The notes beneath the pieces were generated by a model. The model was given only the letters and a program-made list of their open reading frames with translations. It was not told the DNA's origin and made no database searches. Positions 1 to 4,477 of a DNA stretch of 64,000 bases are shown here, piece by piece. The translations under genes were made by a program, and so were the position numbers. Numbering within the stretch: position 1 is the stretch's first letter; every line of letters starts with the position of its first letter. The DNA lies in the NCBI GenBank assembly GCA_913056365.1, contig CAJXLT010000002.1, positions 1-64,000 on the forward strand. Reading direction: 5' to 3'. The DNA comes from an uncultured Paenibacillaceae bacterium (GTDB lineage Bacteria; Bacillota; Bacilli; Paenibacillales; K13).

Positions 1-94
1 TCCGAGAGTACCCTACCTTCTTCTATTTGTGAATACACTTTTTACCGAATTACACAAACTATTTTACGTCATCTTAATTGGCGTCCTAATAGAG

Positions 95-201
95 TCAAGT
101 AACAGTATAGCGAATCTGATAATACATATAGAAGGCAACATGAATCCTCTTCTGGACCGAGGAGCGTTAGCGACAATGCGTAAATATGGTGTTAGTCGAT
201 G
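95..201 (-). other. Probable divergent attC-like site (array continues left)
   Basis: The right boundary is well supported. The 9-mer at 191-199 reads TCGACTAAC on the minus strand, the exact complement of GTTAGTCGA at the start of the same cassette (760-752), and it is followed by the GATG that ends every other site here. The body is not homologous to the four other sites. The left boundary is a guess at 95-103 (GTTACTTGA on the minus strand), which can pair only partly with the right end. The stop codon of the neighbouring gene lies inside the site. Confidence 0.4.
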
Positions 202-725
202 TTCCCTCTTCTATCGAATATACCTCCAGCTTTTAATCTTACGACTTGAAATTTTCTAGCGATAATACTCTCATCTTCCTTCAACTTAACTAGTCTTCTC
301 TTACCTAATCTACTATCAAAATAAGCTATAGCCCTGATTAGTGGGTTAGTTGATGATAATGCATCATCTATTGATAAATTTATAAATTCTTCAATTGCAT
401 TATAGAATTCATACTGATTATGAATTCCCTGTTTTTCCATCTCACGTTCGGCAATCTTATAAGCTTTATAGTATTCGTCCTGCTGTTCAGGATTCCGCCA
501 GTCTAATGCATCGTTCTGCTTTCTTATATCATTAGCTAACGAGTTATACTGATAGCCCCTATTCACAGTACAAAAATCATGAATAATCTCATTATCAAAA
601 GTGACCCAACCTCTCCCTACTTGATCGTGAGTATCCCTATATCGAGTATTATGATAGGTAATCCTACTCTTCAGAGCATTACATAATCTGCTTTCGATTT
701 GTTTTTTTAATTTACTCCATTGCAT
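192..725 (-). CDS. Cassette-borne hypothetical protein, SF0329-like
   Basis: This 177-residue soluble protein has no signal peptide or membrane segment. Its N-terminus (MQWSKLKKQIESRLC) and the following region (RYRDTHDQ, then GWVTFDN) resemble my recollection of the uncharacterised SF0329 family; no function is known to me. It starts at ATG about 35 bases after the inferred cassette junction at 759/760, with only a weak AGAAAG-type ribosome site, and its TAA stop overlaps the next recombination site. It is AT-rich compared with the core genes, in keeping with a captured cassette. The gene is co-oriented with the attC-like sites, the normal cassette arrangement. Confidence 0.75.
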   Translation of the reverse strand: MQWSKLKKQIESRLCNALKSRITYHNTRYRDTHDQVGRGWVTFDNEIIHDFCTVNRGYQYNSLANDIRKQNDALDWRNPEQQDEYYKAYKIAEREMEKQGIHNQYEFYNAIEEFINLSIDDALSSTNPLIRAIAYFDSRLGKRRLVKLKEDESIIARKFQVVRLKAGGIFDRRGNID

Positions 726-751
726 AATGCTTTCACTCTTTCTAGGGAATT

Positions 752-919
752 TCGACTAACGTTCCCGTGTTCACGACGTCCCACCACCTTAAGGTCACGT
801 AGTGACCGGCCGCGATGCGGTTAGGTGGTGCGGATGTGTCCCGGCAATCACTTCTCCGACTTTTCTTCCGGGACCGAAGCGGCTTGTCCGCCGATGCGTG
901 AACACATTGTTATATGATG
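752..919 (-). other. attC-like recombination site A
   Basis: This is an imperfect palindrome of 168 bp. Read on the minus strand, it opens with TCATATAAC-AATG and closes with GGGAAC-GTTAGTCGA, which resembles the R''...R' ends of integron attC sites. The inner arms GTGTTCACG and CGTGAACAC pair. An internal stem CACCACCT (782-789) pairs with AGGTGGTG (823-830); the other three sites have different bases here but keep the pairing. The inferred crossover lies between the G and TT of GTTAGTCGA (759/760). The two outer ends do not match each other; each matches the far end of its own cassette. Confidence 0.8.
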
Positions 920-1044
920 CCGACTACATCTTTGAGATTCAAACAAATTGTAGCCTTTAATAATCTTTTTTTCGCTTAATTCTTCAAAAAGCCTGCTTTC
1001 TTCCGATATAAATAATATGCAAATCGATAATTGGGGGAATTAAA

Positions 1045-1299
1045 TTGAATAATAAAACAGGTGTTGTTCTCTTTTATCTCCAAATAAGTCTATATACACT
1101 AAAGATAATAACTTACGCCGGAATAGCAATTTTTCTATTTGGTCAGATTGAATTGAAGGAAATAAACGCCCCGGAAGATATTATGTTAATGATTGACGGA
1201 CCCTTAGGAAGAATGCTATTAATGGCAGCAATTCTCGAATCTATTCACAATTTCATTGGAATGGTAAAAAGGATGACAACAAGGAATGCAACATTGTAA
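1045..1299 (+). CDS. Small two-helix membrane protein in a cassette, antisense orientation
   Basis: This 84-residue protein starts at TTG with a GGGGGA ribosome site about 6 bases upstream. It has a hydrophobic segment at roughly residues 7-34 and a second at about 57-74, with a basic C-terminus (VKRMTTRN), so it is probably an inner-membrane protein. I do not recognise the family. It lies between sites A and B and reads against the direction of the attC-like sites, so it would need its own promoter. TTCAAA and TATAAA with an 18-base spacer occur upstream, near 987-1016. The N-terminus could lie elsewhere, but no better start was seen. Confidence 0.6.
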   Translation: MNNKTGVVLFYLQISLYTLKIITYAGIAIFLFGQIELKEINAPEDIMLMIDGPLGRMLLMAAILESIHNFIGMVKRMTTRNATL

Positions 1300-1328
1300 T
1301 GGATCACTCCCACAAAATCTCGTCGGTT

Positions 1329-1484
1329 TCATATAACGTTCCCGCATTCACGATCCCTCACCGGCTTAGATAGCTCCTATCTTAGCCGGTGCAGGGTCGT
1401 CGCCTGAATTCACTTCTCCGAAATCCCTCTGGTGACCAAGGGTCAGCTTGCTGGCCCCCCGCGTGAATGCATTGTTATCGGATG
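1329..1484 (-). other. attC-like recombination site B
   Basis: This 156-bp site is homologous to sites A, C and D. On the minus strand it opens with TCCGATAAC-AATGCATTCACG and ends with CGTGAATGCGGGAAC-GTTATATGA. The internal stem arms CACCGGCT (1359-1366) and AGCCGGTG (1384-1391) are fully complementary and extend inward to about 15 pairs with one mismatch. The inferred crossover is at 1336/1337. The opening 9-mer is complementary to the start of the toxin cassette (GTTATCGGA at 1969-1961), not to this site's own closing 9-mer. Confidence 0.85.
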
Positions 1485-1548
1485 TTCGAGACTTCTTCGA
1501 ATTTCTTACAAAGAGCACTTCAATTTCTTCATCTATCCAATAACCTAG

Positions 1549-1577
1549 TTTTCATCATAATGTAGTTATGGTAATAT
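1549..1577 (+). promoter_or_regulatory. Predicted sigma-A promoter for antitoxin RNA
   Basis: TTTTCA (1549-1554) and TAATAT (1572-1577) are separated by 17 bases. The promoter points toward the 3' end of the toxin gene and has no open reading frame behind it, which fits an RNA antitoxin. Confidence 0.5.
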
Positions 1578-1583
1578 ATATGT

Positions 1584-1710
1584 ATGAAAGCCGAGCGCGG
1601 GAACGCTCGGCGGGTACAATTGGCTTGGATGGGTTTATCCCTTCTTGAGTCATTTAAGGTCTAAAATCCCACCCTCGGCCTTCAGAAACCTTGGGGTGGG
1701 ATTTTACTTT
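1584..1710 (+). ncRNA. Putative antisense antitoxin RNA of a type I module
   Basis: A transcript from the upstream sigma-A type promoter would start near 1584. It would form a perfect 8-bp hairpin (1590-1597 with 1604-1611) and end at the strong hairpin 1663-1705 followed by T-rich sequence. It converges with the toxin mRNA and overlaps its 3' end, the layout of BsrG/SR4-like Bacillus modules. The ends are inferred only from promoter and terminator positions. Confidence 0.45.
1663..1705. terminator. Bidirectional terminator between toxin and antitoxin RNA
   Basis: AAAATCCCACCC (1663-1674) and GGGTGGGATTTT (1694-1705) form a perfect 12-bp stem with A/T tracts on both sides. It can therefore end convergent transcripts. 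It overlaps the toxin stop codon (1704-1706). Confidence 0.75.
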
Positions 1711-1793
1711 CTCTTATAATTCGAAGAGATGTATGTCAAAAGTGCAATAACAAAGGTTCCAAATAGGATCATAATCGTTATTGTATCTTTCAA
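1704..1793 (-). CDS. Type I toxin, holin-like membrane peptide (Hol_Tox type)
   Basis: This is a 29-residue peptide starting at TTG with a strong GGAGG nine bases upstream. The core ILFGTFVIALLTYI (about residues 9-22) forms one transmembrane helix, followed by a basic tail ending NYKRK. Sequence, size and layout match the putative holin-like toxins of Bacillota, small membrane peptides of TxpA/BsrG-type type I toxin-antitoxin pairs that depolarise or damage the envelope when not silenced by an antisense RNA. The gene sits alone in the cassette between sites B and C, co-oriented with the attC-like sites, with its own promoter. Toxin-antitoxin cassettes are common stabilisers of chromosomal integron arrays. 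Confidence 0.75.
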   Translation of the reverse strand: MKDTITIMILFGTFVIALLTYISSNYKRK

Positions 1794-1855
1794 CGCTGCT
1801 CACCTCCTTTCGAAGGGAGCAGTCCCCACCCAAGATTCAATTGTACTTGCTTTTG

Positions 1856-1864
1856 ATTATATCA
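1856..1864 (-). promoter_or_regulatory. Extended -10 promoter of toxin gene
   Basis: The minus strand carries TGATATAAT, a perfect extended -10 element about 60 bases before the toxin start codon. No clear -35 is seen. The leader of roughly 55 bases is typical for type I toxin mRNAs. Confidence 0.5.
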
Positions 1865-1960
1865 TTTCTTCCAAAATTATCATAGAACAAACGTTTTGTT
1901 TTTGTCCTTGAAGTCTTAATGATTTCCCATTTTTATCAGGTTTATATGTTTTCCCGAATT

Positions 1961-2129
1961 TCCGATAACGTTCCCGCATTCACGATCCCTCACTGGCTTA
2001 AGGTCCGAAGGACCTGCCGCGATGCGGTTAGCCAGTGCAGGGTTTTCGCCAGAATCCACTTCCTTGAAATCCCACTGGCGACCAAGGGACTCGGAGAGGC
2101 CCGCCGCTTGAATGCATTGTTATCGGATG
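1961..2129 (-). other. attC-like recombination site C
   Basis: This 169-bp site on the minus strand opens with TCCGATAAC-AATGCATTCAA and closes with CGTGAATGCGGGAAC-GTTATCGGA. The stem arms CACTGGCT (1991-1998) and AGCCAGTG (2030-2037) pair. Nested hairpins AGGTCC/GGACCT and GCCGC/GCGGT lie between them. The inferred crossover is at 1968/1969. Confidence 0.85.
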
Positions 2130-2151
2130 CCCTTGCCTTCTCCGAGTATAC

Positions 2152-2517
2152 TTACTCACTGTCTTCTTCTATCTTTCTTATCTTTATTACACTAGTCTGC
2201 GCTGGGAAAGATGCATCAATTTCATTATCCAGCCAGACTTCAACATAATCTCCTTTACTATATTTCTTTACATCCACTCCACTTAACCAATATGCTTCGT
2301 CAATTAAATCCAAAAACTCAATATCAATCTGTTCAGTATTCATGGCAGTTTCTTTACTAATTCCATTCACGACTAATATTCTCTCTCTATCATCAGTATC
2401 AATTACATAGCCTTTAAGATCAGATGGTCCAGAAGCACAGCCTAATACTACAAAGCAAAGCAAGGGTAATATAACAACCAAACGTTTTGTTTTATATATC
2501 ACAGAATTTCTATACAT
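2152..2517 (-). CDS. DUF3221-like lipoprotein in a cassette
   Basis: This 121-residue exported lipoprotein has an N-terminal basic region, a hydrophobic stretch and lipobox VLGC (Cys near residue 27), so it should be lipid-anchored on the outer face of the membrane. The mature part (GYVIDTDD, ILVVNGISKE, then VDVKKYSKGDYVEVW and SFPAQTSVIKI) resembles DUF3221/YobA-type domains of unknown function. The start is ATG at 2517, with GGGGGA seven bases upstream; an in-frame ATG at 2532 lacks a ribosome site. It is co-oriented with the attC-like sites and flanked by sites D and C. Confidence 0.75.
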   Translation of the reverse strand: MYRNSVIYKTKRLVVILPLLCFVVLGCASGPSDLKGYVIDTDDRERILVVNGISKETAMNTEQIDIEFLDLIDEAYWLSGVDVKKYSKGDYVEVWLDNEIDASFPAQTSVIKIRKIEEDSE

Positions 2518-2567
2518 GATTAGATCCCCCATTCAATCTATTTTCAAAAAAAGGTTGTGCAAGGGTT

Positions 2568-2720
2568 TCCGATAACGTTCGGTATTCACGAACCCTCACC
2601 GACTTAAGTGACCAAAGGGAACAGCCGCGATGCGGTTAGTCGGTGCAGGGTTTTCGCCTGAACTATCTTCTCCGGAATGCCATGACCAAGACCGCCGCGT
2701 GAATGCATTGTTATCGGATG
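2568..2720 (-). other. attC-like recombination site D
   Basis: This 153-bp site on the minus strand opens with TCCGATAAC-AATGCATTCACG and closes with CGTGAATACCGAAC-GTTATCGGA. The stem arms CACCGACT (2597-2604) and AGTCGGTG (2638-2645) pair, with bases that differ from the other sites in a compensatory way. GCCGC/GCGGT recurs as in A and C. The inferred crossover is at 2575/2576. Confidence 0.85.
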
Positions 2721-2746
2721 TTATTGCCCTCTTTGATTATGCAGAA

Positions 2747-3220
2747 TCAACTTTTGAATGAACAACTATAGCGTTCAACTCCCGGATACTTCTCACCCAA
2801 ACTGTTAATCACAAATCCAATATGTCTATAAAATTCAACAGCGTCATCATCTGTTTCTACAGTTACTTCTTTCGGGTTCTCTTTATTCAGAAGTTCGGAA
2901 ATTAATACTCTTCCAAAACCTTTTCCTCTGAATTCAGGTTTAACAGAAATGTGTGTTATTTCAATTACTTTCTTGTCAATATACTGATATCCTATCAACC
3001 CAATTGTTTTACCTTCCAATCCAATACCGTACAGTTGTAATTTGGAGCTTGCTTTATATTTTTCGATGATTTTCTTCAAACTATAAGTATCAGGGAAAAC
3101 GCACAAATATAGTAGATCTTTAATTTCTGGTTCTTCTATTCTTCCAATAATATTACTGAACAAATTTGCACTTCCTTTGTATTTGGGGTTTAAATTTACT
3201 GCAATAATTTCCGATAACAT
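2747..3220 (-). CDS. GNAT family N-acetyltransferase, first cassette
   Basis: A GNAT-fold acetyltransferase of about 157 residues. The acetyl-CoA pyrophosphate loop is visible as SVKPEFRGKGFGRVLI (R/Q-x-x-G-x-G/A type), followed by the family's FYRHIGF near the C-terminus. The substrate is unknown. The frame is open back to 3283, but the inferred attI/cassette junction lies at 3217/3218, inside the ATG at 3220-3218. The G of that ATG would therefore belong to the attI side and the rest of the gene to the cassette. No strong ribosome site precedes it. An in-frame ATG at 3283 would put 21 attI-encoded residues on the protein. Confidence 0.75.
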   Translation of the reverse strand: MLSEIIAVNLNPKYKGSANLFSNIIGRIEEPEIKDLLYLCVFPDTYSLKKIIEKYKASSKLQLYGIGLEGKTIGLIGYQYIDKKVIEITHISVKPEFRGKGFGRVLISELLNKENPKEVTVETDDDAVEFYRHIGFVINSLGEKYPGVERYSCSFKS

Positions 3221-3340
3221 CTTATTTGCGAACTTTCGCGAATACGCATACGTAGAAATGAATAAGCGTAGTTCGGGAAGCATGCGTTTTTGCGTAGCAT
3301 TCTGTAAGCCACCCTCTGCGCTATAGCATGATCATATCCC
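3210..3340 (-). other. Candidate attI site next to the recombinase gene
   Basis: GTTATCGGA (3218-3210 on the minus strand) repeats the closing 9-mer of sites C and D but is not preceded by the attC palindrome, as expected of attI. Just upstream lie an inverted repeat GCGAA/TTCGC (3228-3239) and partly repeated ACGCAAA/CGCAT motifs that could bind the recombinase. A possible -10 (TATGAT, 3336-3331), a GAGGGTGG ribosome-like motif (3316-3309) and a short reading frame starting at ATG 3300-3298 also fall here. These could drive the first cassette, but that part is speculative. Confidence 0.5.
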
Positions 3341-4477
3341 CTAATCCCCGTCCGACCAGATGCTATCAAGCGGATTGGGGATGCGACGAATGTCCTTAGT
3401 GCTGACGTGGGTATAGCGGCTCGTGGTGCGGCTGCTTTCGTGTCCTAGCAGTTCTTGGATGTAGCGTAAGTCCGTACCGTTCTCCAACAGATGTGTGGCG
3501 AATGAATGACGCAGAGCATGGACGCTCACCTTCTTCTGAATCCCTGCTCTTCTTATTGCTTGATCGAACACCTTCTGCACGGTTCGTTCTGTCAGATGCC
3601 GCCGATTATCTTGTCCAGGGAAGAGCCATACCATGGGCTGTTCCCGTTCCACATAGGTGCGCACAGCACGAAGGGCTGCTTCAGATAACAAGGTTTGGCG
3701 GTCTTTCTTGCCCTTACCTTGCTGAACACGAATCGTTCTCCGTGCAAGATCGAGATGCTGATGCTGCAAGCGAACGACTTCTCCTACACGCAACCCACCA
3801 GAATAAGTCAGCATGAGAATGGCGAGATGTTTTGGATTGTCCACTTGAGCCAACAGCTGCTTAACCTCCTCCTGGCTCAACACGTTGGGAAGCGATTGAA
3901 CTCGCTTCGGTCTGACGTAGGCTATGTCTTCCTTCTCCCCGTGCAACACATGCTTCACATAAAACTTCACTGCTCGAATAGCCTGATTCACATAGGAGGA
4001 ATAGCGACCTTGCTGCAGTATTGCATGTGTGTATTCATGCAACGCTCCTTTGCCCATAGGGCGTTGAGTCGTTTGAAGATGATCTACGAAACGACGCACC
4101 TGCCCACAGTAAGCTTTTACCGTCTTCGTACTGTAACCGCGCAGCTGCAGCTGCTTTCGAAGTGCGACTTCGTTCATTTGCAGGTGAACTGGTGAGGAAG
4201 GAACTGCTTTCCTTTCATACGAACCATGCTCCTTCATCCGGCGCAAGAGCCAAGCACAATCGCGAAGCAAGCTGTCTTGTACAACCGGTATGCAGGAAGG
4301 CAGCGCACGCAGTAACGTGTCAACCGCGACTTCCTTCAACGGGATTAGCCACAACCGCTCCGCAGGGATGTACAACCGCCCCGGAATTGCCTTAATCTCC
4401 GCTGCAACCGATACATCATACCGCTCCAAGGTCAAGCTGAGCTGACCGGAATTCCTTCTCCCCACATCAATCCTCAC
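3341..4477 (-). CDS. Tyrosine recombinase, candidate cassette integrase without an IntI patch
   Basis: This 378-residue tyrosine recombinase has catalytic residues R230, K255, H320, R323, H346 and nucleophile Y355 (SGGLR, GKGKKDR, HALRHSF, LLGHES, YTHVS). A SAM-like core-binding domain spans about residues 101-180. The first 95 or so residues form an extra domain (IPGRLYIPAERLWLIP) like that on some XerC/D-type integrases. Between the lysine hairpin and box II it goes directly from KKDRQTLL to a short loop and VWLFPG, so the roughly 20-residue insertion that defines IntI integrases is absent. GTG start with AAAGGA about 10 bases upstream. It is transcribed toward the cassettes, unlike class 1 integrons. 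Confidence 0.85.
   Translation of the reverse strand: MRIDVGRRNSGQLSLTLERYDVSVAAEIKAIPGRLYIPAERLWLIPLKEVAVDTLLRALPSCIPVVQDSLLRDCAWLLRRMKEHGSYERKAVPSSPVHLQMNEVALRKQLQLRGYSTKTVKAYCGQVRRFVDHLQTTQRPMGKGALHEYTHAILQQGRYSSYVNQAIRAVKFYVKHVLHGEKEDIAYVRPKRVQSLPNVLSQEEVKQLLAQVDNPKHLAILMLTYSGGLRVGEVVRLQHQHLDLARRTIRVQQGKGKKDRQTLLSEAALRAVRTYVEREQPMVWLFPGQDNRRHLTERTVQKVFDQAIRRAGIQKKVSVHALRHSFATHLLENGTDLRYIQELLGHESSRTTSRYTHVSTKDIRRIPNPLDSIWSDGD

Follow-up and report, generated by a model that had tools for sequence, protein, structure and literature searches.

Of the systems described so far, the integrons, as represented by the class 1 integrons and the chromosomal integrons of Vibrio, come closest to the locus considered here. 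In integrons, the R' box follows the consensus GTTRRRY, toxin cassettes are usual in the chromosomal representatives, and sites without a recombinase also occur (CALINs). In the Treponema-type integrons, the integrase gene points towards the array and encodes a true IntI with the patch. The attC site of integrons is presented, in the excerpt of PMC3053210, as a bottom strand with extrahelical bases, and an IntI-specific additional domain near patch III is presented as necessary in the excerpt of PMC9668308 (citing Messier and Roy, 2001). One further example of recombination at a folded single-strand site is the integration of CTX-phi by XerCD, recombinases without an I2-like domain (Escudero, 2016; PMC4792948, in excerpt); unlike the system described below, CTX-phi borrows the XerCD of its host and possesses neither its own recombinase nor cassettes. 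As to the Firmicutes, the excerpted text of an early survey states that only matches with the IntI additional domain/patch were retained, and notes that integrons were absent from 103 complete Firmicutes genomes (Nemergut, 2008; PMC2426708). Firmicutes are, in the excerpt of PMC8618304, listed among the phyla with detected integrons, and thus integrons in this phylum are not new as such. Among the matches listed from the open-access literature, with PMC9668308, PMC8618304, PMC3053210, PMC4909258, PMC8876359, PMC4035279, PMC4792948, and PMC2426708 included, the excerpted text describes neither patchless integron-like arrays in Bacillota nor a HARP-bearing tyrosine recombinase.

The stretch of DNA analyzed here (the window) comprises 64,000 nucleotides of contig CAJXLT010000002.1, starting with position 1 of this contig, from the 4.65 Mb genome of an uncultured Paenibacillaceae bacterium (GCA_913056365.1). 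At 3341..4477 on the minus strand it encodes a patchless tyrosine recombinase of 378 aa (GTG start), with the residues RKHRH and Y present, which very probably is the integrase of an integron-like system of cassette capture, acting on folded single-strand attC-like sites that would be recognized via loop asymmetry, a junction, and the N-terminal domain. With the class 1 and the Vibrio chromosomal integrons this locus shares the RKHRH+Y recombinase, an attI-like site by the gene and an array of small cassettes, which end in an imperfect palindrome, possess a start complementary to their own R'' and a crossover in GTT, and have the more stable fold on the bottom strand. Unlike in integrons, the recombinase lacks the IntI patch/additional domain and carries an extra N-terminal domain, the array lies behind its 3' end, the sites are branched, R' is mostly GTTAnnnG, and the L stem is often uninterrupted. 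The orientation of the recombinase relative to the array is that of the Treponema-type integrons. With the Xer proteins (archaeal XerA, XerC/XerD) the recombinase shares a similar length of the interval between the active-site lysine and histidine, and unlike them it is accompanied by an array and an attI-like site and possesses the N-terminal domain. A related catalytic domain is also found in Pseudomonadota recombinases of approximately 300 aa, labeled IS91like (L150, which adjoins an IS91-like transposase, L197, L199, L200, L206, L216, and L056), which form a separate clade, have a short N-terminus and show no array signal (four of the seven examined).

The cassette array in the window

Four copies of an imperfect palindrome of 149-165 nt divide the small genes found 3' of the recombinase gene, in an array of cassettes each with one such attC-like site. 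An attI-like site, recognized as such by its sequence alone, is found beside the recombinase gene, approximately 125 nt beyond it, at 3211..3262 on the minus strand (outer limit approximate). Its core box is GTTATCGG (3218..3211, with the G at 3218), a motif that is present at a similar offset in relatives, and its R box is complementary in 8 of 8 positions to the R'' of the first cassette. A covariance model of attC gives a weak match (E 0.2) at this attI-like site, at 3211-3259 on the plus strand, opposite to the strand of the array sites.

The sites are all on the minus strand, as are the cassettes, with the exception noted. Cassette 1 (2576..3217) encodes a GNAT acetyltransferase (ORF 2747-3163; Pfam Acetyltransf_10, 9.7e-12), whose probable TTG start, assigned by eye, is inside the cassette at 3163, and ends in attC-like site 1 (2569..2717). 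Cassette 2 (1969..2575) encodes a DUF3221 protein (ORF 2152-2532; Pfam 7.8e-15) and ends in site 2 (1962..2126), with fold z values of -5.02 for the bottom and -3.95 for the top strand. Cassette 3 (1337..1968) encodes a putative holin-like toxin, Hol-Tox, of 29 aa (ORF 1704-1793; PF16935, 6.7e-10), and ends in site 3 (1330..1481). Cassette 4 (760..1336), to which no strand is assigned, contains an 84-aa ORF on the plus strand (1045-1299), reversed versus the array and without a Pfam match, and ends in site 4 (753..916), which was missed by the strict site pattern and read by eye. Cassette 5 (1..759) encodes an SF0329 family protein (ORF 192-725; Pfam 6.6e-49), and the contig ends before an end site is reached. 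Each of the four complete cassettes matches its own start, and sites 3 and 4 mismatch their own R'. A search of the window against Rfam gave no match, and model R1, built from short sites, detects one of the four window sites, weakly (E 0.12).

Folding of the sites and cassette boundaries

The attC-like sites measure 80-296 nt, with a median of 131 (161 exact sites). From 103 sampled site references, 55 of them of up to 140 nt, 30 are contained in alignment A4, and 24 of those, all 98 nt long, in alignment A5, while alignment A6 is composed of 19 longer, window-type sites, the four of the window included. The 24 aligned 98-nt sites present an R stem, an L stem and three arms, in which 93.3% of the cells are paired; changes on both sides are seen in 13 of 34 pairs, and the covariation score of 0.184 (versus 0.028-0.063 when slid) was reached by none of 500 shuffles. 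The number of further pair types, 24, is lower than the shuffle mean of 27.2. The short sites are predicted to fold as a covarying four-way junction. For the 19 longer sites, RNAalifold predicts 15 pairs, seven with changes on both sides, five of these being in the L stem; as the sites were selected by L-stem pairing, the L stem is no independent evidence. The outer three pairs of the R stem often fail within one site, as is expected if its two sides derive from different cassettes. Of 160 distinct sites, 133 fold more stably as the bottom strand, and a wobble test of the folding strand (G.T versus A.C) was neutral, at 35 versus 31.

When repeat segments are chosen without any pattern, the pair TAAC..GTTA is present in 186 of 219. 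Spacer pairs with a difference of three (4/7, 3/6, 6/9, and 5/8) account for 145 of these 186 sites, and an uninterrupted L stem of at least 8 pairs is found in 101 of them, which suggests that the classical bulged bases may be absent. The R' boxes fit GTTAnnnG in 216 of 242 cases, and only 59 of the 242 fit GTTRRRY, so the integron consensus does not describe these sites. Some portions of the R and L boxes do not vary in sequence, and the classical attC boxes are less invariant than those found here.

As to the boundaries of the cassettes, if these are circles cut at G^TTA, then the variable bases that follow GTTA belong to the next cassette, and R'' should pair with the start of its own cassette. 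The outer four bases of R'' match the start of their own cassette 4/4 in 115 of 176 cassettes, and a 4/4 match within one and the same physical site is found in 14 of the 176; the mean match is 3.28 for the own start, 2.12 for the same site, and 2.01 when the other sites of a locus are taken. By locus (n = 32), 29 agree, one is opposite and two tie. From this difference the crossover can be located at GTTA, in agreement with cassettes that are circular. Further evidence is presented by 11 pairs of cassettes common to different genomes (87-99% identical), in which the outer R'' bases are identical in 11 of 11, the start bases in seven, and the bases after the end site in none; one shared cassette directly follows attI in L049 and has an internal position in L126. 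Comparison of this kind indicates that the cassettes are mobile as units cut at G^TT. They have a median length of 780 bp, and in 139 of 174 the longest ORF runs along the array strand.

The attI-like site follows the same logic of complementarity. In 29 of 36 loci its R box is complementary in 8 of 8 positions to the first detected R'', at an offset of 97-151 nt from where the match to the recombinase ends; complementarity failed in 7 of the 36, in three of which (L045, L051, and L139) the best match is an attC further along. The attI motif scores at least 12/16 in 42 of 62 loci, three of its positions being fixed by the search, and its surroundings are conserved, as GAAGTtCGTAAAtAAGAcGTTA (consensus of 51 loci). 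In our reading, the CGTAAATA part of attI resembles the attC L' box CGTGAATA, and its spacing of four bases is that of the R''-L'' side.

The alternative that survives best is that recombination takes place at duplex sites, as with phage or transposon integrases, and that the palindromes are only binding sites. Tyrosine recombinases normally use duplex DNA, and the invariance of parts of the R and L boxes agrees with such a use. However, the outer R bases differ between cassettes yet are complementary within each, and the arms covary; as sequence-specific duplex binding provides no explanation for either, we consider this alternative unlikely.

The recombinase and its relation to IntI

The recombinase possesses the Pfam domains Phage_integrase and Phage_int_SAM_4, and its AlphaFold model has a mean pLDDT of 90.3. 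R230, K255, H320, R323, H346, and Y355 are all invariant among 37 aligned sequences, that of the window included, and the protein presumably is catalytically active. The interval from K255 to H320 is encoded at 3518..3715 on the minus strand. A sequence-only reading of this DNA had pointed to a short loop in this interval, without the extra helix that carries the patch in IntI. This is borne out: in one alignment of 76 proteins the interval is 65 residues in the window protein, and the AlphaFold model contains no helix between the helices 266-279 and 297-311. The surplus of IntI had been put too low, at approximately 20 residues, as the interval is 105-107 residues in nine IntI of the same alignment (one of which has E in the K column), approximately 41 more than in the window protein, and the loop had been placed at 3341-3640, positions that encode residues 280-378. 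Neither by length nor by helix does the window protein, therefore, possess the additional domain of IntI.

The short interval is shared by relatives. It is 64-66 in 25 rows of the BacillotaArray set and 64-69 in 17 Bacteroidota rows of the same alignment, and the IntI insert is absent from all 42 rows of these two array sets that were measured. The names of the sets do not imply that an array was seen in each row, as several contigs stop right after the gene; the BacillotaArray set includes L154 (Bacteroidales) and L156 (Spirochaetota), both outside of the clade of 23 described below; and the broken recombinases L034, L125, and L133 were excluded from the protein sets, with their loci kept in the site counts. 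In three other recombinases of the host genome the interval is 72, 71, and 78, and the first two of these are putative XerC/XerD.

In the tree with IntI, all nine IntI rows form one clade (100/100) on a long stem, with the family excluded; 23 Bacillota rows, the window included, form another clade (98/91), apart from IntI; and the Pseudomonadota recombinases of approximately 300 aa form a third (100/99). Members of the clade of 23 head cassette arrays where the sequence sufficed, with exceptions such as L057/L105. A placement of the window protein with phage or transposon integrases of duplex sites, the result that the sequence-only reading had named as speaking against it, was thus not found. 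Scores point in the same direction. With the NCBIfam model integrase_gron (TIGR02249; cut-off 265 bits) the window protein obtains 192.2 bits and five relatives 191-235, all below the cut-off, versus 410-508 for four IntI controls. Among the NCBIfam models, XerA_Arch scores highest with the window protein (215.6, cut-off 220), followed by XerD (180.6 of 329.6) and XerC (178.3 of 335.15), with all three cut-offs missed; two of five relatives, L058 (230.8) and L142 (222.6), pass XerA_Arch. The recombinase, without a patch, below the IntI cut-off and outside the 100/100 IntI clade, is not an IntI.

An ordinary integron with a divergent IntI, a normal member of that family whose patch is merely reduced, is accordingly a very improbable explanation. 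It could draw on the best solved-structure match, which is IntI4 (2a3v) both by sequence and by fold, on the fact that integrase_gron is matched at all, and on the AU tests, in which neither a grouping of the Bacillota with IntI (p 0.357) nor one of the window protein alone with IntI (p 0.0925) is rejected at 0.05. The AU tests likewise do not reject a grouping of the Bacillota with the Bacteroidota (p 0.187) or of all three (p 0.126), and several deep orders of the tree are thus compatible with the data. Against the explanation by a divergent IntI stand the 32.4 log units that are lost when the window protein is forced to group with IntI, the absence of the insert from both array sets, the scores of the window protein and of all five relatives, the exclusion of the family from the IntI clade, and a search of 60 genomes of the order, run without an IntI-bearing control genome, in which none reached the IntI cut-off.

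The N-terminal domain

The first 95 or so residues, encoded at about 4187..4477 on the minus strand, had been read as an extra domain, and this reading stands: they are predicted as a separate domain, with a pLDDT of 92.0 when modeled alone, and IPGRLYIPAERLWLIP (residues 31-46) can be aligned with IRxIxGRxWxPxEKxWxIPYT, the consensus of the family. In some relatives this domain is HARP-like by sequence. At E<=5, 11 of the 37 sequences of the family match HARP (PF07443), and among seven relatives scanned in detail the matches fall in the same region in six, with one (L072, 32.3 bits) above the Pfam gathering score of 25 bits and most below it; the window protein itself has no match to PF07443. 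HARP binds branched DNA. HARP domains fused to other SNF2 proteins are, in the excerpt of PMC4035279, stated to confer annealing-helicase activity.

In structural comparisons with the domain alone, all 623 Foldseek matches stayed above E 0.001, and VIA-align gave, at levels that the tool calls common, Z 5.8 to the IS621 recombinase (8wt9), Z 5.5 to a chloroplast Holliday-junction resolvase (6kvn), and Z 4.6 to the first 55 or so residues of XPB (5tnu; rmsd 2.2 over 54). In a fold search with the whole model the matches were filled by the catalytic domain.

The presence of the domain is correlated with arrays. Among 37 patchless relatives, an array signal is seen in 10 of the 16 that are extended at the N-terminus by at least 60 aa, versus none of the 21 that are not; as all 10 positive rows are Bacteroidota and kinship is ignored in the statistic, this is a correlation across related sequences and no test of function. 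For this comparison 37 of 80 loci were dropped (30 with less than 2 kb downstream and seven with cut or broken ORFs) and six IntI rows set aside; the rows with a short N-terminus include partial hits (L198, L226), and the site finder was without validation on known IntI arrays. It is plausible that the N-terminal domain takes over the recognition of the site. Since Bacteroidota relatives have short hairpin-like sites, the domain and the four-way junction are not coupled.

Proposed mechanism

The sequence-only reading had also supposed that, if the recombinase uses folded sites, the task of the IntI patch must be solved differently. Part of this holds, as the patch region is gone in 42 rows and folded, covarying attC-like sites adjoin the gene, and thus recognition of the folded site would need to work patch-free; the part concerning extrahelical bases is less certain, as such bases may be absent in their classical, bulged form. 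The preferred reading, of an integron-like integrase with folded sites, would operate as follows. Circular cassettes, each with one structured attC-like site, would be inserted at the attI-like site approximately 125 nt behind the recombinase gene, with the crossover at the start of GTTA, and could be excised again. The attC-like site would be used folded and single-stranded, most likely as the bottom strand, with an R stem, an asymmetric internal loop (usually 4 versus 7 nt), an 8-bp L stem and a junction with three hairpin arms. In IntI, the choice of the strand and the block of the second exchange are the work of the patch and the extrahelical bases, while here both may follow from the asymmetry of the loop and from the junction, as read by the HARP-like N-terminal domain. 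Resolution would probably proceed by replication, as in integrons. As far as sequence data can establish them, the loop length, the structure and covariation of the sites, the cassette boundaries, the shared cassettes, the attI-like motif, and the genomic association are all in place.

A wider proposal, which we offer tentatively and would place somewhat short of even, is that of a second, IntI-independent route to an integron, in which a Xer-like recombinase gained an N-terminal domain that binds branched DNA (HARP-like) instead of an internal patch, the attC is a cloverleaf-like four-way junction in which a loop asymmetry of three nt replaces the extrahelical bases, and the system spread through Bacillota and Bacteroidota, invisible to surveys based on the patch. 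If the recombinase proves active, a widespread cassette system devoid of the domain would show that the patch is not needed. A patchless system also makes the origin of integrons testable, presents a natural experiment on strand choice and could show an alternative way to recognize folded DNA, and the patchless arrays suggest that Bacillota harbor a large pool of cassettes.

Distribution of the recombinase and the arrays

Of 392 genomes of the order, 134 contain relatives of the recombinase at E<1e-45, many of which are degraded. Relatives are also present in 33 of 398 genomes of a phylum sample, 30 of these outside of the class. With an alignment as the query, relatives are also found in Bacteroidota and other groups (best 80 of 591 matches), and a single-protein search of genome contigs and viral contigs confirmed nothing. 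In the sister genome (G001), the recombinase (L034) has two stop codons and is located approximately 0.5 kb from the contig end, with an attI motif of 16/16.

Across 62 loci, a strict asymmetric site pattern, derived from the arrays of the Paenibacillus order themselves, finds 242 sites on the recombinase-sense strand of the 668,386 bp downstream, versus nine on the opposite strand and one in the 259,393 bp upstream, with at least one site in 39 of the 62. In most loci from other classes of the phylum repeats are present and strict-pattern sites are none. Without a pattern, of the 55 loci whose downstream sequence extends for 1 kb or more, 51 contain at least two repeated segments in it, not all of these segments being sites; no downstream repeats are found in L105, L110, L123, and L124 despite enough sequence. 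A looser generic site finder gave 52 links downstream versus four upstream (80 loci), and a stricter one found at least three sites in L161 alone among 26 loci.

Sites detected by model are present in 122 of 134 order genomes with the recombinase versus 81 of 258 without it at E<1e-45 (odds ratio 22 over 392 genomes, with kinship ignored), the latter resembling integrase-less attC clusters; in the 12 recombinase-bearing genomes with no such site, as elsewhere, the search scored at most 10 candidates per genome, with strict filters. The least probable of the alternatives makes the recombinase a passenger beside arrays that are either relics or mobilized by XerC/XerD of the host. It could call upon the sites in genomes without the recombinase and upon the several broken recombinases, that of the sister genome included, but sites without a recombinase occur for integrons as well, and the alternative is opposed by an attI-like site that has the same core at a nearly fixed place behind the recombinase and by the strength of the association.

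Observations similar to those on the Bacillota arrays can be made for two relatives from Bacteroidota, L161 (Rufibacter) and L148 (a Pontibacter plasmid), which possess arrays with hairpin-like sites of approximately 56-70 nt. In L161, R'' pairs 5/5 with the start of its own cassette in four of six cassettes and with the same site in none, and in L148 the pairing with the own start, read by eye, is seen in three of three. A shortened relative of the recombinase, annotated as TnpF or tyrosine recombinase and with a match that begins at residue 151 or 166, is found directly upstream of tet(X3) on plasmids (L149, 6010-8031; L055, 6103-7986). A cassette site was sought behind tet(X3) and no attC-like site was established there, and a cassette origin of tet(X3) is to be taken as a lead. 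As to further cassette contents, cassette 7 of L039 encodes a protein with an AbiTii domain (PF18864, 1.3e-13), by its name a phage-defence family.
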